Shown one piece after another: positions 50,793-64,000 of a stretch of DNA of 64,000 nt. Each line of letters starts with the position of its first letter. Position 1 is the first letter of the stretch. This stretch comes from Veillonellales bacterium (GTDB taxonomy: Bacteria > Bacillota > Negativicutes > JAAYSF01). The position numbers were made by a program, and so were the translations under genes. The stretch lies in NCBI GenBank assembly GCA_039680175.1, contig JBDKTO010000065.1, positions 1-64,000 of the forward strand. Direction: 5' to 3'. A model generated the notes under the pieces. The model saw nothing but the letters and a program-made list of their open reading frames with translations. It was not told the origin of the DNA and searched no databases.

Positions 50793-50821
50793 TTGGCATA
50801 GTTTGCAAATTCGGTTATAAT
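50793..50821 (+). promoter_or_regulatory. Promoter of the tandem-riboswitch transcript
   Basis: -35 TTGGCA (50793-50798) and consensus -10 TATAAT (50816-50821) have 17-nt spacing. Transcription would start near 50828, 26 nt before the first riboswitch. Confidence 0.75.
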
Positions 50822-50853
50822 AAATATAAAGAATTCAGCAATTAGAAATGATT

Positions 50854-50927
50854 GGCAAACTTATCGAAAGATAAGGACGCAAAGCCTTGGGTCTACGGAG
50901 TTTTTACTCTATGATTGCCAGGTTGCC
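50854..50927 (+). ncRNA. Cyclic-di-GMP-I (GEMM) riboswitch, first copy
   Basis: The conserved core is present: GGCAAAC at the 5' end, a GAAA tetraloop, the GGACGCAAAGCC segment with its tetraloop receptor, GGGTCTACGG and the closing AGGTTGCC. The 5' GGCAA pairs with the 3' TTGCC. By my alignment the ligand-facing 5' position is G, as expected for c-di-GMP rather than cGAMP. A terminator follows 20 nt later. Confidence 0.93.
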
Positions 50928-50946
50928 GCGCTAACAGTGTGTTTGC

Positions 50947-50976
50947 AACCGGACAATCTCGTCCGGTTTTTGTTTT
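50947..50976 (+). terminator. Terminator of riboswitch copy 1
   Basis: AACCGGAC/GTCCGGTT hairpin followed by TTTTGTTTT. GCAACC at its 5' foot (50945-50950) can pair instead with GGTTGC (50921-50926) of the riboswitch closing stem, so ligand binding should favour termination (off switch). Confidence 0.85.
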
Positions 50977-51024
50977 CCCGGTTTATTTCCCGGCAGATTG
51001 AAAAAAAGCACCAAGTAAATATGG

Positions 51025-51098
51025 GGCAAACTTATTGAAAGATAGGGACGCAAAGCCATGGGTCTACGGAGTTTTTACTCTATGATTGCCAGGTTGCC
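51025..51098 (+). ncRNA. Cyclic-di-GMP-I (GEMM) riboswitch, second copy
   Basis: This is nearly identical to the first copy, offset by 171 bp: GGCAAAC, GAAA loop, GGACGCAAAGCC, GGGTCTACGG and AGGTTGCC are all kept. Differences fall mainly in the P1b arm, with compensating changes (ATTGAAAGAT in place of ATCGAAAGAT). Confidence 0.93.
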
Positions 51099-51120
51099 GC
51101 GCTAACAACAGTGTGTTTGC

Positions 51121-51150
51121 AACCGGACAATCGTCCGGCTTTTCGTTTTT
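51121..51150 (+). terminator. Terminator of riboswitch copy 2
   Basis: CCGGAC/GTCCGG hairpin followed by CTTTTCGTTTTT, with the same GCAACC foot that can pair with the riboswitch 3' strand. It ends 45 bp before the start of the exported-protein gene. Confidence 0.85.
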
Positions 51151-51194
51151 CCGGTTTATTCCCCCGGCAGAATGAGCAAAAGGAGTTGTTGGTG

Positions 51195-51551
51195 ATGAAA
51201 AAAATATATGAGTTAACATTATTAGTGGTTATGGCTGCTCTACTCTTCGCGTTTACCGGTTCAGCCGCAGCAAGTCCGGCAAACGCCAATGCAGTCGATA
51301 AAGTCAGCATTGATGTTTGCGGTGATGGACTTGTCCATGCTATTATTGATAAAACAAACCTGGCGGCACAGTCAAATCACAAAGATATTGTATTCTCAAG
51401 CCATAAGGCTATTATGAATGAGGTTTCCGCCGCTGCAATAAGTCCGGTTCTTAATACCAACGGGATTGTCCGGGCACAGAGTGTAACGTCTATGGACGGT
51501 ATCACCTTCTTGGGTTCTAATTCCGTTGCCGCTGAAAATCCACAACCTTAA
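51195..51551 (+). CDS. Small exported protein under c-di-GMP control
   Basis: This 118-residue protein has a clear signal peptide (KKIYELTLLVVMAALLFAF, cleaved near SAAAS or ANA) and a mature part of about 90 residues with one cysteine and no recognisable domain. The start is the ATG at 51195 with AAGGAG 9 nt upstream, directly behind two riboswitch/terminator cassettes. It should be periplasmic or secreted, and its transcription should respond to c-di-GMP, the biofilm/motility signal. It converges on the giant adhesin gene. It could be an adhesin accessory, a matrix part or a regulator; no function can be assigned. Confidence 0.8.
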   Translation: MKKIYELTLLVVMAALLFAFTGSAAASPANANAVDKVSIDVCGDGLVHAIIDKTNLAAQSNHKDIVFSSHKAIMNEVSAAAISPVLNTNGIVRAQSVTSMDGITFLGSNSVAAENPQP

Positions 51552-51622: not shown

Positions 51623-54600
51623 CTAGCGGTCATTCATAATAAAAACTGCCAAAACCTGATCCGGTACTACCCCCAATTCGTTGACCGCGCTCAGTATCCC
51701 ATTTGCCAGGATTAATTTATTCGCCGCTTTGTCCCCGCTTTGGATAATTTGTTTTGACGCATCCCCCAAGGGAGTAATGCGGAGCACACCGTTTAGCGCC
51801 TGAACACTAAACGAACTGGTAGTATTTCCTACCTTCATATCGAAAATAGCAGCAGGGCCGGCATCACCCTCCAACGCTGGCGGCGGGGGAGCGTTCTGCC
51901 CGCTGGGTATTACCGTCAGACTGGATTGATTGTAGCTGACATCATATAATCCTTCCGCATTGACTCCGCTGCTGTTCCTGGTAAACACCGGAATACTGAT
52001 CCCCTCTTTACGCGGCGTCAAATCGCCAAAATCATCTGTCTGTTTATTGCCGTCGGCACCGACGCTCCCAAAGTTCACAGTCACAGAACCGCTGCTACCC
52101 GGCCCAAAGTTGATGGATGGACCCGTATTGCTGCTATTTCCTTGACCGGGTGAGGTGCCACCCTGATTGCCGGGGGTGGGTGATTTTCCTCCTTGGTTAC
52201 CGGGGTTTGAAGCATTACCGGTGGCATCCTTTGCCGGCTGGGGCAGACCCGTTATGGACAGCGCCGTTGCATTGCCGGGATCCTGCTGAAAAACATAGTT
52301 GCCAAAATTAGCTGATAAACCGCTGCCATCAATGGCGTACTTGCCGATACTGCTAGTCGCTGTAGCCGGACTGTCGAAGCTTAGGCTTCCGCCGGTAGCG
52401 CTGCTTACGGTTTCCCCGTTTTTGAATCCTGTTACCGTACCGGTAAAACCGGGATTGGGAAGCCCTATATTCCGGGTTGCGGCATCGGCTACGTAAGTCA
52501 AAGTAGCCGGAGTAATGGTTAAAGCGCCATTCTGGTAACTTAAAGCATAGTTAGCTGCCGTTGCTCCCCCCGGAACAATGTCATAAGTTCCCACATTGCT
52601 GGCAGACCCGGCTGCGGTTCCGGCCGTCAGACCGCTCAGCACACTGGCTCCCTCTTTATTTTTAAACCCGCTGTAACTGAACGTCCAGTCCGGATTGGCA
52701 TCGCCGTAAAGCCGGGTTTTGCTGTCGGCTGTAATGGTCAGCGGTGCTTTGTCGATAGTAAAAGGATTTTCGATATAAGTAATGGCGTAATTCGGATTGT
52801 TCAGTGTTCCCTGGTTAATGCCATAACTGCCGGCGTTCTCGCCGCTGACTCTCGTCAGTGCTCCGCTGAAGCTGTCGCTGTTGACCAGATTCGTCGCCGT
52901 ATAGGTATACGCCGCCGGATCGCTTTCTCCGTAGGTCTTGTGCTGTCCGGCATCAACGGTTACTGTGGTCGGCCGCTGAGTAACAGTCAAATCGCCGGGA
53001 ACATAGCTGATGGTATAGTTGCTGGCTGCAGCCCCGGAGCCGCTGATCGCGTACGAACCAACATTGCTGGTGGCCGTCGCCGGAGTTGCCAGGCTGAGAC
53101 CGGATATTACACTATTGGAATCACTGTATTGGAATCCGTTATAGCTGGCTGTCAGCGCCGGATTGGCATCGCCGTAAATCCGGCTCTTGCTATCGGCCGT
53201 GATGGTCAGCGCCGCTTTATCGATGGTAAACGTATTTCCCACATACGTAATAGCGTAGTTCGGATTGTCCAGCGTTCCCCGGTTGATCGCGTAATGGTCG
53301 GCGTTTTCGCCGCTGTCTCTCGTCAGTGCTCCGCTGAAGCTATCGCTGTTGACCAGGTTCGTCGCCGTGTAGGTATAGGCCGTTGGATCGCTTTGCCCGT
53401 AGGTCTTGTGTTGATTGGGATCTGCCGTTATCGTGGTGGGACGCTGATCTACTGTCAATGTGCCTGAAGCATAGCTGATGAGATAGTTGCCGCTGCTGCC
53501 GCTGCTGAAGGTTTGTCCTGACGGGGTCAGTGCAGCAGTAGAGCCTGCCCCACTATGGGTATCGAGCACTTGGCTGGCGTTTACGGTCACACTGCCAACG
53601 GTATCCCCATTGACCAGCCCTAAACCTGATCCCGCTGTCCCGGTCGATGCTGCTGCCGTAAAGGCCGGATTGGTATCACCGTAATGACGGGTGATGTTGT
53701 CTGCCGTGATTACCAACGGGCGCTGACTTACGGTCAAGGTTCCGTCTACATAGCTGATGGTATAGTTGCTGGCTGCAGCCCCCGAGCCGCTGATCGCGTA
53801 TGGACCCACATTGCTGGTAACCGTCGCCGGAGTTGCCAGGCTGAGACCGGTGACTACGCTGGCGGAATCCCCATTTGTCAAACCGCTGTAGCTGGCTGTC
53901 AGCGCCGGATTGGCATCGCCGTAAATCCGGGTTTTGCTGTCGGCCGTGATCGTCAGCGCCGCTTTATCGATGATAAACGGATTTCCCACATAAGTGATAG
54001 CGTAGTTCGGATTGTCCAGCGTTCCCCGGTTGATCGCGTAACTGCTGACGTTTTCGCCGCTGTCTCGCGTCAGTGCTCCGCTGAAGCTATCGCTGTTGAC
54101 CAGGTTCGTCGCCGTGTAGGTATAGGCCGTCGGATCGCTTTGCCCGTAGGTCTTGTGTTGATTGGGATCCGCCGTTATCGTGGTGGGACGCTGATCCACT
54201 GTCAATGTGCCTGGAGCATAGCTGATGGTATAGTTGCCGCTGCTGCCGTTGCTGAAGGTTTGTCCTGACGGGGTCAGTACAGCGGTAGAGCCTGCCCCAC
54301 TATGGGTATCGAGCACTTGGCTGGCGTTTACGGTCACACTGCCAACGGTATCCCCATTGACCAGTCCTGAACCTGATCCCGCTGTCCCGGTCAATGCTGT
54401 AGCCGTAAATGTCGGATTGGTATCGCCGTAGTGACGGGTGATATTGTCTGCTGTAATGGTCAGCGGACGCTGATTTATGGTCAAGGTTCCGTCTACATAG
54501 CTGATGGTATAGTTGTCAATTGTACCGCTGCTAAAGTGGGCTGCTGACGGAGTAATACTTGCCGTTCCCACTCCCGTGTTCAGCGCAGCGTTGACCGTAT

Positions 54601-57600
54601 CCGTTACACTGGTTACGCTATCACCGTTAACTAAGCCGCTGCCGGAACCGACTGCTCCGGTTGCTGCCGTAAAGGCAGTAACCGTCGGGTTATTATCACC
54701 GTACAGGCGGCTGGCACCACCGGCTGTAATTGTCAGCGGACGCTTATCGACACTCAGCGTCCCATTAGTATAAGTGATGTCGTAGTTTCCAATGCTGCCG
54801 CTGCCAAACACAGCGGCTGAAGGAGTTAAACTCGTGCTTGAACCAGCTGAGGTACTCGTATCAAAGCTTGCCCCAGGGGTAATCGTTACACCTGTTACCG
54901 TATTGCCGTTCACTAGACCTCGGCTGGTTCCTGTGCCATCCAGCGCTACAGTGTACCCAAAACTGTCATTGGGATCGCCATAGTGGCGGGTTTGGCTATA
55001 TGCCGTTATTGTCAACGGACGTTGATTAATTGTAAAGGGTCCGTCCACGTAGTTAATCGTATAGTTACTGGCAATCCCGCCACTGCCAAAGGTTGCTGCC
55101 GAAGATGTAACCTTGTAGGTTGAGCCGACATCTGTAGTCTTATCAACAGCTGCAGTATGGCTTGCGTCTGTCCAAATTGAATTTGTTACGCCGATTACTT
55201 TCTCGCTGCCGGCCAGCCCTGTGCCAACTCCCGGGGCTGTTACTGTAAAACCGGTTATTGTGGGGTTGGAATCTCCGTAAACCTTGCTGGAATCTGCCGC
55301 CGTAATCGTCAGCGGCCGGGCGGTAATGCTGCCGGGAGCCGTTATATAGGTGATATTATAGTTGCTGTTGCCTGAGCTGATCGCTATCAGCGGATTCATT
55401 GTCGTGGCGGTAAGAACGTCTTTGCTGTTATAGGTTTCACTATAAGTAGCGGTATCAACAACTCTCTTACTTGCCAGTGAGCCGCTGGTGATGGTCGGGA
55501 CTTCGCCTTTTGTCGCAGCATTGGTTCCGTCATATACCTTGGACGCTGTGCTGGCGGTAACGGTAATGGGGCGCTTGGTGATCGCAAAATTAGCCACTGT
55601 CGAAGTGATGGTATAGTTAGCTGTGGTATCCACAAGGCTAACCGAATCCCTTACTTTAATGTTAGCCACGGAAAAAGCATAATTGTTCACCGTTTCTCCG
55701 GCAACACGACTCATAGTTCCAGTTACTTCTTCACCGGTTGCTGTATTTAGAGAAACGTAACTCAATCCGGGATCAAATTCTCCGTATACCTTTGTCGCAT
55801 TGTCGGGAGTTACCGTCAACGCCCGCTTATTGATAACAAAGGCTCCGTCAGCATAGGTGATCACATAATTGCCGCTGCTGCCGCTGCTGAAGCTAGCGGC
55901 GGAAGGCGTAACGAGGTATGTCCCTATTCCGGTCTTCTCGACAATCGAATTATCCGTTGTCCCGCCGGTATGCAGTGTATTTGTCACACTGCTGATGTTG
56001 TCCGTACCTGCCATACCGCGGCTTGTTCCAACGCCATTAGCGGCAACAGTAAAGCCGCTGACAGTCGGGTTAGAGTCCCCGTAGGTTTTGCTGCTGCTGG
56101 CGGCGGTGATGGTGATCGGCCTGAGGTTTATTGCCAAAGTGCCGTCCAGATAATGGATCTCGTAGTTGCCGGCAATTCCGCCATTAGCAAAGACCGGCGC
56201 CGTGGACGCCACTGTATAGCTGCCATGATCGGTTGTATCCGTCACTTGGCTGCTATGAGTCGCTCCATCGGTATAAAAGGTATTGGTCACATCGCTGATT
56301 TTTTCTCCCCCGGCCATACTCATCATCGATTTACCGTCTACTGTCTGACCGACAGCTACCTGGCTGAACTTCCCGCTGCTGTCATAAGTCACGGTGCTGT
56401 TCGCATCGCCGTAAGTCTTGCTGCCGCTGCCGGCTTGTATCCCAATGGGCCGCGGCGTAATATCAGCGGTTGTGGTATAGGTATTGGCATTGCTGAGGCT
56501 GTAGTTGCCGGCAGCGCTTCCCCCAAGTGTCAGGCCCTGAATATAAACGGTCTTGCCGACTGCTGCATTTTTATCCACGAAGACGCCCTGGCTTGGCAAA
56601 GCAACAGTGACATTGGCTGAATCTGAGGGAACCACTCCGGTTAGCGTAGCTCCGCCGCCATAAATCACTGCCGCCGTCGTTGCGTCATACACCTTACTGG
56701 CCGCGGTAATGGTGCCGCTGGTCACGGTGATCGGCCTTTTGTAGATGGTATAGGTTCCCGGATCGACGGTGACAATGTAATTGGTACCGCCGCTTAATGT
56801 TCCATTGCCAATCCCGCTGGTATACGTACCCGCATTCGTGTATGTACCCTGGAAGGCAAGCTGCCCGGTAATGATACTGGCTGCAGTATCCGTGTTATAG
56901 AAGCTGCCGCTGGTCACTGTATAGTCCGTTCCTGCATGCCAATTTGTCGGCGCAGTTGATGTTCCGTCATATACTTTGGCGGCATCGTCGGCTTTGACAG
57001 TAATTGGCCGCTGTTTAATCGTCAAAGGAACCGTGGTACTGCCCTTGATAATATAACCCATTGGCGTAACCGTTTGATCTGTCGTCTTAACCTGATAAAG
57101 AGTATTATTATCGGCATAAGTTCCTGCATTCGTATTAATATCCGCACTGGTCTGGATGTTTTGTGTTTGTGTGATTCCCAAACTGGCCGAAGTATCACTG
57201 TCAATATATCCCGCAAAGGTAAACTGAATTGTAGGATTATCGTAGCCATAGGTACGGGTAGCAGCTGTTGGCGTCAAAAACGGCGCATAGGCATAGAGAA
57301 AGGCACGCTTTGATCCGGCCGGTGCAATCGGCAGCGGAGCAACGGAAGCCGGTGCATCGGCATTAAAGGTATAACCGTAATATTTATAATCCCGCGTCAA
57401 GTTTCCAATTACATCGGTAGCGCTTGACTGGGCGCTGTCAATACTTTTGTCGTCAATCGGGCTGTAGGAATAGACCAGCCAGCGGCCGCTGCCGGGATTT
57501 AGTGCCGGATTTTGGGCAGTTCGCCCGCTGTTATTGTAAAAATGCTTGTACAAGCCTTCCGCCGACAAATAAATGTCCGCTGCCCCGCCGGTTGTAATCT

Positions 57601-60600
57601 GAGCGCCGCTGGCAAGGGTAAGATCACCGCTGGTGCGAATAAGCACCGGCTGAGCGGCTGACGTATTATCATTGGCGGTATTGTCGCTGATTTGACCGTT
57701 AACCGTCAAGCATCCGGCCGCGCCAATCGTAATCCCGGTGTAAGCGGAGGATGTTCCCAAAGTATGAATCGTATTGTAAAAGGTCGTAACCTTGGACACC
57801 GAATCCGTAGTGCTATGGCTAAAGTCAATGGCACTTTGGGTGGATACGGCGGTTAAAGTTCCCACACCCGTCAAGGTTCCCGTCGAACCGTCAATCTTAC
57901 CAAAGGAAGTGATATCGAGATCCTTGCCGCCCATGGTCAGAGTGCCGCTTACCGTCACGGAACCGCCGGACAGCGGACTCTCGAGAATCAGCTTGTCCGG
58001 AGAGGTAAAGGTATTCACGACAATAGGATTGGACCCGTCACTGCGGCCCACGGTAATATTGTTGAAAGTAGTGGACACCACATTGTTAAAGGTCGGCGAA
58101 TCAATCTGCAGCCCGCCGCTGCCGCCGGTTCCCAGGGCAATTCGGGTGGTGGTATCCTGCGCCTGCAGGTTTAACGTTCCGGTGCCGGTAATGCTGCCGC
58201 CGTTACTGAAGTCCATAGCACTTCCGGCTAAAGTCACCGCTCCGCTGCCGCCACTAACCAAGGAGTTAGCCTTCGTCGTAATTGTGCCGGCATTGATCGT
58301 AATCGGCTGGCTGGTGACAGAATTGTCAATTCCGCCGGTTGTGCCATTGCCAATGACGACCGTTCCGCCGCTGGGTGACTGGATGGTAACCGGGTCGGTA
58401 AAGGTCACGGCATTGTCCACCGTCACTGTACCGGTACCGCTGCCATGGCCGAGATTCAGCATCGTGAAGCCGTCAGCAAAAGTCTGGGCCCCGCCGGAGA
58501 ACAAGCTTCCCGGCAATTCAAGGGAATTTCCTCCGCCCCCGCCGATGCCAACCCCAGTTGCAGGTCTAAGCGGACGAACATTGAGAACGCCGCTGCCCTT
58601 CACCCGGGAAGCGGAATCCAGGCTCATTACATCCGCCGTCAGAGTAATATTGCCTGACGGGGTAGCACCGGTCATCGAAATCACGGCAGAAGAACCGGTA
58701 GTCCTTAAGGTCCCTCCGGCCTGCAGGCTGATGGCGGTGCTCACGCCATTAGTCAGATTATTGGCTCCGTTAACCGATGTAACCGGCTGGGCTACAGTCA
58801 GTGAACCGTCGCTTGCGACCACAATATCGCCGCTAGACTGAACCGCACCCGATCCGGTCTGGGCATACGTCGCGGTGATGCCTTGCGTTCCATTGACGGT
58901 GCCAACAGTTAAGTCCGCACCATTATGGAAGTTCAGCGAACCGACATTCGCTGCCAAGACACCCACAGCATTGCTGGCGGTGCCAAAATTATAGTTTACT
59001 TGCTTATTGGCCGAGCTTCCACCCAATAAGTCCAGATTAGCTGCGGTAATAACACCTTCCGCTGTCTGGTCAGCCCCGCCGGAGGCGTTCATCGTGATGG
59101 TCTGGCCGGCATCGGACAAGGAAGCATTCACATGAATCTTGCCGCCGGTGGAATTGGACGAGGTCAAGACATCCAAATCGGTATGCAGGATGAGCCCTGT
59201 ATTGGTAACCGTAATATTGCCGCTGCCATCGCTGCGGCCGATGGTGACCTTGGCAAATCCTCCGGTATCCGTATTTAAAGCGCCTGTTTTATTGGTTGTC
59301 CCATCATAAAACAGGTTTTGCGGCAGATTCAAATCATAGCCGCTGTCTGTTCCCACGCCGATGGATTCCCCGGAATCAAAGGGCTGCAGGAATAAGCCAT
59401 GGGTACCGGTAATGCTCTTGCCGCCGCTGTTTAAGGCAAAGGTATGCCCTGACAAGGTGATATCGCCGTTGCTGCTGCTGAGCTGGGCGCCGCTTTCGGT
59501 AGTAATCGTGCCGCCCCAGACATTGATGTTCTGGTTCGCTGCAATGGTTCCCTTGATATCCACGTTGCCGCTGGAAATAGCGGCAATAGTGATATTATCG
59601 GTGCTGGGAAATAGGGCATTATTCATGGTTACACTTTGAGCCGAATACGTCGAGCCAAAGGTGATCGAGTTGGTATAGCTGCCGGTGAATACCCGGGCGG
59701 TGCCGCTGAAGCCGGTTGTTCCTTCCGGCCGGTCCGTGCTGTTGCCGTCAAAATAGCCGTTGGGAATGAGCAAATTGGTCGCGGCGCTAGCGCCACTGAT
59801 ATCCCCCACCACCATGCCGGTGCTGCTGCTATAGGGATGAAGCTGCAGCGAACCGGTGCCGGTAACATGGGCCAGTGAGCCAAAATTCATGGTATTGGCC
59901 TGCAGTCGTACACTGCCGCTAGGATCTATGGTCGAGTTGGCGGCCGCATCCAAGGAAATGCCTTCCAGTGCCAAGCCACCGGCAAAATGGGCGGTATTGG
60001 TCACGGTAATATCCTGGGTACTGTTGCCGCCGATAGTATAGCCGCCGAAACCGCTGAATACCTTCTCGGCTCCGTTAAACATCTTGTCGCCAAACTGCAG
60101 GTGGTTGGCTGTTCCGGCGGTAAAGTCGGTGCCTAAATCCACCACAGTGCTGCTGGCAAAGGGACGCAGGTACAGCGTATTTCCTGTTCCTTGTATATTG
60201 GCACTGCCGGGGTTTGTGTCGCCATCCCCCAGGGTCATGACATCGGCGGTCAGCTGAACATCGCCGGAGGCTGTAATGGCGGCGCGATTCGCCGTGTCAC
60301 TGGTATCAGCCGAAATCGTTCCGGCGGTTAAAGACAGAGAACTGCCGCCGGTTGTAATTATATGAGCCGTTTTGGCCAGCTGAATGGTTCCGGGAGTTGT
60401 GTTATTGGGACTCTGAATGGTGGTGGAATCGACAAACGTCACTGTGCCGTCCAAAGTAATGCTGCCGAAGCTGGCTGGTCCCGGCGTATTGCCTCGGCCA
60501 ATCGTCACGGAATTAAATCCGTCTTTGACAATATTCCCGCCAAAGATAGCGCTCGCCAGTTGCAAATGAGCCGGATTCGCCGTAAAGCTGCCGATATCGA

Positions 60601-63600
60601 TAGGCGTAGCCGCGTTAAGCGGTTGAATCGTAAGATTCCCCGTCCCTCGAACTACCGGTGTCCCGGTGGAAAAGTCCATCTTATCAGCCGTCAGGGTAAT
60701 CATTCCGCCGCCGGTGCTGCTGATGGTCTGAGCCACTGTCAATGTACCGCCGGATTCTAAATTCACCGCATCAACGGAAATCGTGTTCCCGTTTGCATCA
60801 TACAGCCGGTTTGCCTTTACTCCCGATGTACTGTTGACTGTTCCCGCCGTTAAACTGGTAGCGTTGGTCACTAATACCTGATTGACCGTAGCAGCTGCAA
60901 TCGTGCCAATCTGATTCGCCGCGCCGGTAAAATCGTAGATGGTTTTCGGCCCATAACCGGTATCCCGGCCCAAAAGCTCCATTCCGGCTGCCGTAATCAC
61001 GCCGGCAGAATTTTGAGAAGCATTGTCTCCAAGGTTCATGGTTAGGTAGTTGCTACCAGTAGCCAGTGGGCCGTTGATGAAAAGGCTGCCGCCGGCTAAA
61101 GGCGACTGGAGCAATGTTTTATCCGTAAAGGTGATTCCCGCCGCACCTACGGACAGGGAACCGCTGCCGTCACTTCGCCCGACAATAATTTGCGAAAATC
61201 CGTCTTGAAATACCCGGCTGGCGCCGCTACCGCTAAAAGCAGCCGTCGGCAGAATCAGCCCGCCGGTTCCTGATCCTAAGGCAATGGAATCCCCCGCATT
61301 TTGCGGATGAATCTCTATGGTTCCGGTGCCCCGGACGCTGCCGCCGGGTACATTGAGGGCACCGGCCTCAATGACGATCCCACCGCTGCCGGCATCCATC
61401 CCACCACCGCTGACAGTTTGGAAAGTACCGGCTTTCACCGTAATATTCTGATCGGTGGCAGCATTATTGAGATTGGCAGTCGTCGCTAAAGCAACCGTAC
61501 CGCCGCTGGGCGACTGTAGCACAACCGGATCGTGAAAAGTCACAGTGCCGTCTACTGTAACGATGCCGCTGCCGGCATCTTGTCCGATGGTAATGGAGCT
61601 AAAGCCATCCTGGAACACCGGACTGCCATCAAATAAGCTGCCTGCCAGGTTCAAGCCGCTGCCGGTGGCTCCACCCACATTTACAGCTTTGCTAACAGTC
61701 AGCGGCTGCACTTGCAGCGTCCCTGTGCCGCTGACCGTCGTACCGCCGGGACTGCCGCTAAAGGCCATGCTGTCTCCGGTTAGGGTAATAGCGCCGCTGC
61801 CGGCTGCCAAGCTACTGACCCCTGTAGTCCTAAGAATTGCACCCCTCAGACCTAAAGCACCGTTGTTTGTCGAAATATGAGCCCCATTGACTGTAAGACT
61901 GCCTGCAGCCGACAAGGCCAAAGGCGCTGAAGCGACCGTCGTTTGAACCCCTTGATTAACAGTCAGACTGCCGCTGGATAAATTCACCGTTCCCCCGGCA
62001 GAGCTGCTCAAGGTAATGCCGCTGGTAGAGCCTACCGTATCAATAGCCGTCGGACCGCTGCCGCTGTAGATCAACTGTCCGGTGTTGGCCGCAAGCTTTC
62101 CTACGGAATTGGTTCCTTGCGACAAGTCGAATAATGCAGTATGATTCGGGTCGATTACTTCCAATCCACCGGTCGTGGTGATCCCGCCTGAACTGCTTGT
62201 TACCGCTCCCTGCACGGCGTTTAATGTAATATTTTTACTGCTGCTGACCTGTCCGCTGATCACAATGCTGCCGGTGGTTGCCGGAGATGAGCTGACCCCT
62301 GGCGCCTGCAAGGTAAGGTCATTCGTTAAGCTAATTGTGCCAACGGTAATGGTTCCGGCCGTGCCATCGGTTAACCCGGTGGAGTTGGAACCGCCGATAA
62401 CAACGCCGATCCCCGGTTGAATCACGCTGCTAAATACGCTGCTGGCTATGTTCAAAGCCCCACTTACATTCGTCCCCACGCCGATAGACATGGACGAAGT
62501 CAATGGACGAATATTCAGGATTCCGCTGTCGCCGACGGTACCAAATTTCCCATTCAACCCCATCGTATCAGCGGTAAGAGTAATCGTCCCCGCCCCGGCG
62601 ATAATCTTGGCGCCGGAGTCGGTAATCGCGATCGCTTCCTGACTGGCTGCATGGCCATGCCCCAAAGCGGTAATACTAATATTTCCACCGCCGGACTGAA
62701 TGATGTTGCCGGTGCCGGTTAGGGCCACACCACGATAATATCCATTTGTAGTCTCTGTACCGTCGCCGCTGTTGCTGCCACGAAGGTTAATATAACCGCC
62801 GGTGCCTCCGGCAACACTGGTGTTTAATACAGCCCCCTGCAGTTCTAGGCCGGGAGTCTGCGGCTGAATACTGCCTGCATAGCCACCGGTCTTGCCGCTG
62901 TTGCCGCCATACAAATCAATATTTCCGCCGTTCGTCAAAATCTGACTGTCCGACTGCAGCTGAATAGTGCCGCCCCACACATTATCCGAATCAGCGTTAA
63001 AATCAACATTGAGATTGTTGCTGGTTGACGTAATCTTCACACCGCTGTTCACGATGATATTCGAGGCCGCACTTAAGCTAAGAGTTGCATCCCCTCCAGT
63101 AGCTTTTGTAATATTATCGGCAATCGTAATATTTCCTGTCTGAGTACCGCTGGTACCGGTATTGACACTGACATTGGTGCCGCCGTTCAAAGCCAGATTG
63201 ATGCTCTCTGTGGTAACAACCGCACTGTCGCTCACAGCGACAAAACTGGGTTCCCCCGCAGTCCCGCTGGCAGAAGCCTTGCTCTCGGTCTCAATGATCA
63301 CATCTCTGGGATCCAACAGCCACTTACCGGCCTTCCCTTTAGGCGCTGCTGCATTTACCGTACCCTGAGCGTCAAGATACTCCTTGCCCGAGGTTTCCAC
63401 TAAACCGCCATTTCCACCCTGGGAACCGCCCTTGGCGGAAATACCGCCATAAAAATTGGTTGCTTCATTGGACCAGACGATGGCTTTACCGCCATCGCCT
63501 TTGTCGATAGCATCGGCTTTGATGGTGGTATCTTTGCCGATATACGCAGCTGTAGCGTTTGCTTCCGGCCCCTTGCCCTGGTAGTTGCCGCCCACAAGAG

Positions 63601-64000
63601 CCGTACCGCCGCCCTGGCTGCCGGATACGTCAATCTGAGCCTGACCGGACAGAGCTACTTTTTCACCCAATACCTTGACCGTACCGCCGGTTTGACCCGC
63701 TTCTTTGCCTGACGCATCCAGGGTACCGCTTGTCTCTACGACACCGGAAGTACCGCCGTCTAATATAATGGTGCCGTTTTGCTGCCGAATACTGTGAGCT
63801 TCAATCCTGCCGCTGTTATTAATAACCGAAGACAGCAGCGAACTGCTGGCCTGCCCGGTAAGGATCGCCTGACCGCCATTGGCCTGAACCGTGCCGCTGT
63901 TATTGACGGCGGCGTTGACCGCCCCTTGGTTCACCACAAGACTGACCGTCCCGTCGCCGGGAACATCCAGAAAAACCTGTCCGCCGGCAGCCATGGCTGC
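51623..64000 (-). CDS. Giant filamentous-haemagglutinin-type adhesin, 3' part
   Basis: At least 4,123 residues are encoded; the frame is still open at the right edge, so the signal peptide and most of the secretion (TPS) domain are off-window. The visible N-terminal part has haemagglutinin-type repeats and the GKWLLDPRDV motif (about 215). Next come about nine beta-helix-like repeats (roughly 460-2010), then about 19 YDG/MBG-type modules (about 2235-3850, with KVYDGT or RxYGDxNP cores), a Gly/Pro/Asn linker and a C-terminal domain ending FIMNDR. I see only one cysteine. It should be exported by a two-partner (TpsB) outer-membrane transporter, not seen here, and form a long surface fibre. No C-terminal anchor motif is obvious. 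Confidence 0.9.
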   Translation of the reverse strand, partial: AAMAAGGQVFLDVPGDGTVSLVVNQGAVNAAVNNSGTVQANGGQAILTGQASSSLLSSVINNSGRIEAHSIRQQNGTIILDGGTSGVVETSGTLDASGKEAGQTGGTVKVLGEKVALSGQAQIDVSGSQGGGTALVGGNYQGKGPEANATAAYIGKDTTIKADAIDKGDGGKAIVWSNEATNFYGGISAKGGSQGGNGGLVETSGKEYLDAQGTVNAAAPKGKAGKWLLDPRDVIIETESKASASGTAGEPSFVAVSDSAVVTTESINLALNGGTNVSVNTGTSGTQTGNITIADNITKATGGDATLSLSAASNIIVNSGVKITSTSNNLNVDFNADSDNVWGGTIQLQSDSQILTNGGNIDLYGGNSGKTGGYAGSIQPQTPGLELQGAVLNTSVAGGTGGYINLRGSNSGDGTETTNGYYRGVALTGTGNIIQSGGGNISITALGHGHAASQEAIAITDSGAKIIAGAGTITLTADTMGLNGKFGTVGDSGILNIRPLTSSMSIGVGTNVSGALNIASSVFSSVIQPGIGVVIGGSNSTGLTDGTAGTITVGTISLTNDLTLQAPGVSSSPATTGSIVISGQVSSSKNITLNAVQGAVTSSSGGITTTGGLEVIDPNHTALFDLSQGTNSVGKLAANTGQLIYSGSGPTAIDTVGSTSGITLSSSAGGTVNLSSGSLTVNQGVQTTVASAPLALSAAGSLTVNGAHISTNNGALGLRGAILRTTGVSSLAAGSGAITLTGDSMAFSGSPGGTTVSGTGTLQVQPLTVSKAVNVGGATGSGLNLAGSLFDGSPVFQDGFSSITIGQDAGSGIVTVDGTVTFHDPVVLQSPSGGTVALATTANLNNAATDQNITVKAGTFQTVSGGGMDAGSGGIVIEAGALNVPGGSVRGTGTIEIHPQNAGDSIALGSGTGGLILPTAAFSGSGASRVFQDGFSQIIVGRSDGSGSLSVGAAGITFTDKTLLQSPLAGGSLFINGPLATGSNYLTMNLGDNASQNSAGVITAAGMELLGRDTGYGPKTIYDFTGAANQIGTIAAATVNQVLVTNATSLTAGTVNSTSGVKANRLYDANGNTISVDAVNLESGGTLTVAQTISSTGGGMITLTADKMDFSTGTPVVRGTGNLTIQPLNAATPIDIGSFTANPAHLQLASAIFGGNIVKDGFNSVTIGRGNTPGPASFGSITLDGTVTFVDSTTIQSPNNTTPGTIQLAKTAHIITTGGSSLSLTAGTISADTSDTANRAAITASGDVQLTADVMTLGDGDTNPGSANIQGTGNTLYLRPFASSTVVDLGTDFTAGTANHLQFGDKMFNGAEKVFSGFGGYTIGGNSTQDITVTNTAHFAGGLALEGISLDAAANSTIDPSGSVRLQANTMNFGSLAHVTGTGSLQLHPYSSSTGMVVGDISGASAATNLLIPNGYFDGNSTDRPEGTTGFSGTARVFTGSYTNSITFGSTYSAQSVTMNNALFPSTDNITIAAISSGNVDIKGTIAANQNINVWGGTITTESGAQLSSSNGDITLSGHTFALNSGGKSITGTHGLFLQPFDSGESIGVGTDSGYDLNLPQNLFYDGTTNKTGALNTDTGGFAKVTIGRSDGSGNITVTNTGLILHTDLDVLTSSNSTGGKIHVNASLSDAGQTITMNASGGADQTAEGVITAANLDLLGGSSANKQVNYNFGTASNAVGVLAANVGSLNFHNGADLTVGTVNGTQGITATYAQTGSGAVQSSGDIVVASDGSLTVAQPVTSVNGANNLTNGVSTAISLQAGGTLRTTGSSAVISMTGATPSGNITLTADVMSLDSASRVKGSGVLNVRPLRPATGVGIGGGGGNSLELPGSLFSGGAQTFADGFTMLNLGHGSGTGTVTVDNAVTFTDPVTIQSPSGGTVVIGNGTTGGIDNSVTSQPITINAGTITTKANSLVSGGSGAVTLAGSAMDFSNGGSITGTGTLNLQAQDTTTRIALGTGGSGGLQIDSPTFNNVVSTTFNNITVGRSDGSNPIVVNTFTSPDKLILESPLSGGSVTVSGTLTMGGKDLDITSFGKIDGSTGTLTGVGTLTAVSTQSAIDFSHSTTDSVSKVTTFYNTIHTLGTSSAYTGITIGAAGCLTVNGQISDNTANDNTSAAQPVLIRTSGDLTLASGAQITTGGAADIYLSAEGLYKHFYNNSGRTAQNPALNPGSGRWLVYSYSPIDDKSIDSAQSSATDVIGNLTRDYKYYGYTFNADAPASVAPLPIAPAGSKRAFLYAYAPFLTPTAATRTYGYDNPTIQFTFAGYIDSDTSASLGITQTQNIQTSADINTNAGTYADNNTLYQVKTTDQTVTPMGYIIKGSTTVPLTIKQRPITVKADDAAKVYDGTSTAPTNWHAGTDYTVTSGSFYNTDTAASIITGQLAFQGTYTNAGTYTSGIGNGTLSGGTNYIVTVDPGTYTIYKRPITVTSGTITAASKVYDATTAAVIYGGGATLTGVVPSDSANVTVALPSQGVFVDKNAAVGKTVYIQGLTLGGSAAGNYSLSNANTYTTTADITPRPIGIQAGSGSKTYGDANSTVTYDSSGKFSQVAVGQTVDGKSMMSMAGGEKISDVTNTFYTDGATHSSQVTDTTDHGSYTVASTAPVFANGGIAGNYEIHYLDGTLAINLRPITITAASSSKTYGDSNPTVSGFTVAANGVGTSRGMAGTDNISSVTNTLHTGGTTDNSIVEKTGIGTYLVTPSAASFSSGSSGNYVITYADGAFVINKRALTVTPDNATKVYGEFDPGLSYVSLNTATGEEVTGTMSRVAGETVNNYAFSVANIKVRDSVSLVDTTANYTITSTVANFAITKRPITVTASTASKVYDGTNAATKGEVPTITSGSLASKRVVDTATYSETYNSKDVLTATTMNPLIAISSGNSNYNITYITAPGSITARPLTITAADSSKVYGDSNPTITGFTVTAPGVGTGLAGSEKVIGVTNSIWTDASHTAAVDKTTDVGSTYKVTSSAATFGSGGIASNYTINYVDGPFTINQRPLTITAYSQTRHYGDPNDSFGYTVALDGTGTSRGLVNGNTVTGVTITPGASFDTSTSAGSSTSLTPSAAVFGSGSIGNYDITYTNGTLSVDKRPLTITAGGASRLYGDNNPTVTAFTAATGAVGSGSGLVNGDSVTSVTDTVNAALNTGVGTASITPSAAHFSSGTIDNYTISYVDGTLTINQRPLTITADNITRHYGDTNPTFTATALTGTAGSGSGLVNGDTVGSVTVNASQVLDTHSGAGSTAVLTPSGQTFSNGSSGNYTISYAPGTLTVDQRPTTITADPNQHKTYGQSDPTAYTYTATNLVNSDSFSGALTRDSGENVSSYAINRGTLDNPNYAITYVGNPFIIDKAALTITADSKTRIYGDANPALTASYSGLTNGDSASVVTGLSLATPATVTSNVGPYAISGSGAAASNYTISYVDGTLTVSQRPLVITADNITRHYGDTNPAFTAAASTGTAGSGLGLVNGDTVGSVTVNASQVLDTHSGAGSTAALTPSGQTFSSGSSGNYLISYASGTLTVDQRPTTITADPNQHKTYGQSDPTAYTYTATNLVNSDSFSGALTRDSGENADHYAINRGTLDNPNYAITYVGNTFTIDKAALTITADSKSRIYGDANPALTASYNGFQYSDSNSVISGLSLATPATATSNVGSYAISGSGAAASNYTISYVPGDLTVTQRPTTVTVDAGQHKTYGESDPAAYTYTATNLVNSDSFSGALTRVSGENAGSYGINQGTLNNPNYAITYIENPFTIDKAPLTITADSKTRLYGDANPDWTFSYSGFKNKEGASVLSGLTAGTAAGSASNVGTYDIVPGGATAANYALSYQNGALTITPATLTYVADAATRNIGLPNPGFTGTVTGFKNGETVSSATGGSLSFDSPATATSSIGKYAIDGSGLSANFGNYVFQQDPGNATALSITGLPQPAKDATGNASNPGNQGGKSPTPGNQGGTSPGQGNSSNTGPSINFGPGSSGSVTVNFGSVGADGNKQTDDFGDLTPRKEGISIPVFTRNSSGVNAEGLYDVSYNQSSLTVIPSGQNAPPPPALEGDAGPAAIFDMKVGNTTSSFSVQALNGVLRITPLGDASKQIIQSGDKAANKLILANGILSAVNELGVVPDQVLAVFIMNDR
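52440..57290 (-). repeat. YDG/MBG module array inside the adhesin
   Basis: About 19 successive modules of roughly 75-95 residues start with R-P-[LIT]-T-[IV]-T and contain KVYDGT (three modules, YDG type) or [RK]xYGDxNP (the rest, MBG type). Modules near the C-terminal end are the most alike, and the outer ones are diverged. Such modules form stalk-like beta domains in other adhesins. Confidence 0.85.
52981..54522 (-). repeat. 747-bp near-identical tandem duplication in the adhesin gene
   Basis: The sequence at 52981-53775 recurs at 53728-54522 with a fixed offset of 747 bp (249 codons, three modules); anchors at 53081/53828 and 53554/54301 confirm the offset. Only scattered base differences are seen. 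A third, shorter and more diverged copy lies at about 52700-52980. Confidence 0.85.
57950..62620 (-). repeat. Beta-helix-like repeat array inside the adhesin
   Basis: About nine diverged repeats share the order: ITLTADxM..., V.GTGxLxLxP, a short polar stretch, LxLPxxxFxG, FxDGFxxIxIGRxDGSG, and F.DPVxLQSPSGG. Each repeat with its spacer spans roughly 150-200 residues. The pattern suggests a right-handed beta-helix shaft. Confidence 0.75.

Follow-up and report, generated by a model that had tools for sequence, protein, structure and literature searches.

A tandem c-di-GMP-I riboswitch predicted to act as two OFF switches in series before the gene for a small protein in a Veillonellales bacterium

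Two complete c-di-GMP-I (GEMM-I) riboswitches follow one another in front of a gene for a 118-aa protein in a Veillonellales bacterium, and they probably form a pseudo-cooperative tandem riboswitch in which two complete OFF switches act one after the other. They lie in the window analysed here, the whole stretch of 64,000 nucleotides at positions 1 to 64,000 of contig JBDKTO010000065.1 (assembly GCA_039680175.1). The doublet is real and well-formed; the serial design is already established, and this example of it is sound but ordinary. Its value is that of a clean, locally duplicated case of two serial c-di-GMP-I gates with OFF behaviour predicted for both. What is added here is the predicted OFF/OFF polarity, the history of the duplication together with an argument that both units have been maintained, and a neighbouring adhesin operon that seems to be wired in the opposite way.

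The original prediction of two complete GEMM-I aptamers was borne out when both copies were run with cmscan against Rfam 15. RF01051 matched copy 1 at 50844-50930 on the + strand (82.6 bits, E 9.2e-15) and copy 2 at 51015-51101 on the same strand (78.6 bits, E 8.9e-14), both far above the gathering score of 35. Both alignments span model positions 1-87, that is the full length, with no non-standard pairs marked, and in both copies they show the GAAA tetraloop hairpin and the conserved ACGCAAAGC core. Model position 11 is G and position 83 is C, which we take to be the ligand contacts that mark a pocket of the c-di-GMP rather than the cGAMP type. The two copies are the top-scoring c-di-GMP-I aptamers of the genome, and we infer that they bind c-di-GMP.

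A sigma-A/sigma-70-type promoter, TTGGCA-17-TATAAT, lies at 50793-50821 (+) with 11 of 12 consensus matches, and transcription would be expected to start near 50828. Between the copies the best promoter-like match reaches only 8/12 and none is credible, nor is there any + strand ORF of at least 60 aa. Each aptamer is followed by an intrinsic terminator on the + strand. Terminator 1 (50947-50975) consists of AACCGGAC-aatctc-GTCCGGTT with a T tract after it and forms a hairpin of 8 pairs at 50947-50968, and terminator 2 (51123-51149) consists of CCGGAC-aatc-GTCCGG followed by CTTTTCGTTTTT, with a hairpin of 6 pairs at 51123-51138. The leader thus holds two aptamers of the same class, 171 nt apart behind one promoter and with no intervening gene, and each has its own expression platform, in which the terminator is mutually exclusive with an antiterminator linked to the aptamer. 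The coordinates and anatomy first proposed for the doublet, with a single sigma-A promoter, a terminator for each aptamer and two gates in series, hold, and two complete aptamer-plus-terminator units behind one promoter mean that transcription must pass two gates. A cooperative dual aptamer of the glycine type with one shared platform is ruled out by the terminator that sits between the aptamers. The ribosome-binding site of the downstream gene (AAAGGAG, 51180-51187, +) was read directly from the sequence, and comparison of the repeats shows that the equivalent site behind copy 1 is divergent.

The polarity of the gates, on which the original prediction was silent, was added from folding. In copy 1 the switching region covers 50913-50960 (+), where pairing is possible between GATTGCCAGGTTGC, the aptamer 3' half, and GCAACCGGACAATC, an antiterminator arm to which the terminator left arm belongs, as seen in ensemble folding both free and with the aptamer enforced. 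Ensemble folding gives the same arrangement for copy 2 at 51084-51134 (+), with an antiterminator hairpin loop 3 nt longer. The 3' half GAUUGCCaGGUUGC of either copy can form 13 pairs, all standard, with GCAACCGGaCAAUC, which holds the terminator left arm and part of the terminator loop; in a shuffle control, 4-5% of the shuffles match the strength of this complementarity, which by itself is thus less than compelling. Enforcing the Rfam aptamer structure brings the terminator stem to a probability of about 1.0 in each copy. In the free ensemble the antiterminator reaches 0.99 in copy 2 and about 0.5-0.8, near balance, in copy 1. Misfolding between the copies is small, with about 4 expected pairs between them versus about 36 and 35 within each. 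Because the aptamer 3' half is able to pair with the terminator left arm, a folded aptamer would free the terminator, so a bound aptamer should favour termination, and both gates are predicted to be OFF switches in which c-di-GMP stops transcription. Under this mechanism, when the ligand is absent, GAUUGCCaGGUUGC of each aptamer would pair with GCAACCGGaCAAUC and occupy the terminator left arm, and the polymerase would read through; when c-di-GMP is bound, the aptamer would retain its own 3' half, the terminator would fold and transcription would stop. Since a transcript would have to escape both gates, expression should be roughly the product of the two readthrough probabilities, and the small exported protein would be made only at low c-di-GMP, with little leak at high c-di-GMP.

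The two units are closely similar over their functional parts. The copies share 96% identity over 83 nt of the aptamer, and they are identical over 26 more nt, which take in the antiterminator arm and the left arm of the terminator. They start 171 nt apart, and the distance becomes 174 nt past a 3-nt insertion in copy 2 that maps to the antiterminator hairpin loop. Moreover, the repeat continues beyond the terminator for 36 nt at 75% identity, reaching the region of the ribosome-binding site after copy 2, from which we conclude that an entire unit was duplicated locally. Since the copies differ at many positions in the flanks, they are unlikely to be an assembly artefact. About 3 of about 105 positions have changed between the copies in the aptamer and platform, versus 9 of 36 in the homologous spacer (Fisher p between 0.0002 and 0.001, according to the length taken into account), and this low divergence relative to the spacer argues that both copies have been maintained. 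It also bears on the reading that only one gate is useful and that the other copy is a recent duplicate, acting as a near-constant terminator or drifting. When more of the 5' leader is included, the terminator is already present in the ligand-free minimum-energy fold of copy 1, so that gate 1 may leak or be partly constitutive and terminate to some extent in the absence of c-di-GMP; the free-state balances are unequal between the copies, and a degraded partner is known from a doublet in another genome of the class, where one aptamer scores only 44 bits. Against this, both aptamers are the best-scoring ones in the genome, and neither copy shows more than slight change in its aptamer and switching arms, in contrast to the diverged spacer, which makes a single useful gate unlikely in our view.

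The other c-di-GMP-I riboswitches of the genome give a second view of the polarity. There are 15 over-threshold c-di-GMP-I aptamers, about half of ON type, with the left arm of the terminator inside the aptamer, and about half of OFF type, with the terminator downstream of the aptamer. The ON type comprises seven (L003, L004, L006, L008, L009, L014 and L015), and the OFF type comprises L005, L007 and L010-L013, plus both copies of the doublet, which were classed by their fold with the aptamer enforced, as their local fold is the antiterminator and not the terminator. The weakest OFF-type case is L005, which has only a weak hairpin before its first T tract. As read from the translations, aptamers of this genome precede genes resembling chemotaxis receptors, HD-GYP proteins and a response regulator. 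An ON/ON device in which c-di-GMP prevents both terminators and both aptamers must be bound, in an AND-like manner as in the triplet of Bacillus thuringiensis, would agree with the ON type of that characterised triplet (PMC4759541) and of about half of the c-di-GMP-I riboswitches of this genome, including that of the neighbouring adhesin operon, but it is very unlikely, as the terminators of the doublet lie wholly downstream of the aptamers and form when the aptamer is enforced, and every ON-type leader in the genome has its terminator left arm within the aptamer.

The gene controlled by the doublet (51195-51551, +), with AAAGGAG upstream, encodes a 118-aa protein that likely carries a signal peptide and is likely exported. 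No Pfam or NCBIfam family was found for it. Over 73 aa it aligns at 29% identity with its neighbour TpsA, at residues 192-264 and inside the PF05860 match, and it appears to be distantly related to TPS domains in their C-terminal part. Across 150 genomes of the class (Negativicutes), every relative of the protein lies in a longer open frame, the shortest listed being 378 aa and most exceeding 1,000 aa; among these genomes the short stand-alone form has so far been seen only here. In a search of the genome_contigs set, no relatives of the 118-aa protein or of TpsB were found. TpsA is a giant two-partner-secretion adhesin of about 4,300 aa, encoded on the - strand at 51623-64000 and beyond the window edge, convergent (tail-to-tail) with the 118-aa gene, and it is preceded on its strand by the gene for TpsB, which has ShlB and POTRA_2 domains. 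Before the TpsB-TpsA operon, outside the window on the - strand of the same contig (C65:66483-66568), lies the single c-di-GMP-I riboswitch L009, an ON-type leader with the terminator left arm in the aptamer. With L009 of ON type and the doublet of OFF type, the two convergent units are predicted to respond to c-di-GMP in opposite ways: c-di-GMP would turn the adhesin operon on and the small protein off, a reciprocal wiring of neighbours. Together, the doublet and L009 would permit a direct comparison of ON and OFF control of surface proteins by c-di-GMP in one organism. A search of titles and abstracts for c-di-GMP riboswitches on two-partner secretion operons or in Negativicutes returned nothing on point. 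Any functional link between the small protein and the adhesin is a guess. It could be imagined as a reciprocal surface switch, with an ON riboswitch for the TPS adhesin and two OFF gates for a small protein that acts as its antagonist at low c-di-GMP, for example as a decoy, by blocking TpsB or capping the adhesin, and we regard this as improbable.

What a second gate would contribute was estimated with a model of two independent and alike gates with assumed termination of 90% and 10%, in which readthrough is the square of that of a single gate. In this model the 10-90% range narrows from 81-fold with one gate to 40-fold with two, the effective Hill number of the two gates is 1.19, the half-point of the OFF pair falls to 0.41 of the single-gate value, and the on/off ratio rises from 9-fold to 81-fold. 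The main effects of two gates would thus be a lower leak and a wider on/off range, with only modest steepening. The near-digital response that had been suggested for the doublet was overstated, since in the model independent serial gates raise the effective Hill number no further than about 1.2.

The tandem TPP riboswitches of Bacillus anthracis are of OFF polarity. As far as they are described in the paper on the B. thuringiensis triplet that cites them (PMC4759541), they resemble the present locus in having two complete serial units for one ligand, with a response steeper than that of one, and differ in aptamer and ligand. The triple-tandem Bc3-Bc5 of B. thuringiensis also consists of serial complete c-di-GMP-I riboswitches with their own terminators, placed before a surface-protein operon, and control becomes tighter with more copies, added units lowering the background and raising the fold change, in line with the model above (PMC4759541); the difference is that Bc3-5 are three ON switches, whereas the present locus has two switches, both predicted to be OFF, and its target is the gene for a small exported protein. 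The idea that most tandem riboswitches share one platform, with which the doublet had been contrasted, is wrong for this class. In a genome-wide survey, 805 of the 1,442 stretches between aptamers carried a terminator, a layout in which c-di-GMP is one of the enriched families (PMC12452182). Another publication counts 347 c-di-GMP-I doublets and 12 triplets and places the class among those with 'multiple expression platforms' (PMC9481103). The pseudo-cooperative c-di-GMP-I doublets published there share class, ligand, serial layout and multiple expression platforms with the present locus, which may or may not be among them, and no difference in kind was found (PMC9481103).

Within the class, a strict DNA pattern of the doublet searched in 380 genomes pointed only to this genome, with no leader from a second species for covariation; two other matches to the pattern were not riboswitch-like and were taken as chance. 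The doublet is not unique in the class, as the full aptamer lists of 28 genomes contain three further c-di-GMP-I doublets, with copies 217-353 nt apart and a terminator for each copy. All three differ from the present locus in their target genes. The doublet L041 of genome G017 (C16:64993-65302) has near-identical copies 217 nt apart, both of the downstream-terminator (OFF) type, and precedes a gene for an RTX-like repeat protein. The doublet L043 of genome G011 (C9:116688-117034), with 262 nt between its copies, is unlike the present locus in being ON/ON with one decayed aptamer: its first aptamer has fallen to 44 bits and lost the conserved ACGCAAAGC core, and the terminator hairpin is retained. 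The doublet L042 of genome G009 (C23:297003-297447), 353 nt apart, differs again in pairing an OFF-type unit, which comes first, with an ON-type unit, and may work as a band-pass-like device or else represent two leaders, each with a promoter of its own.
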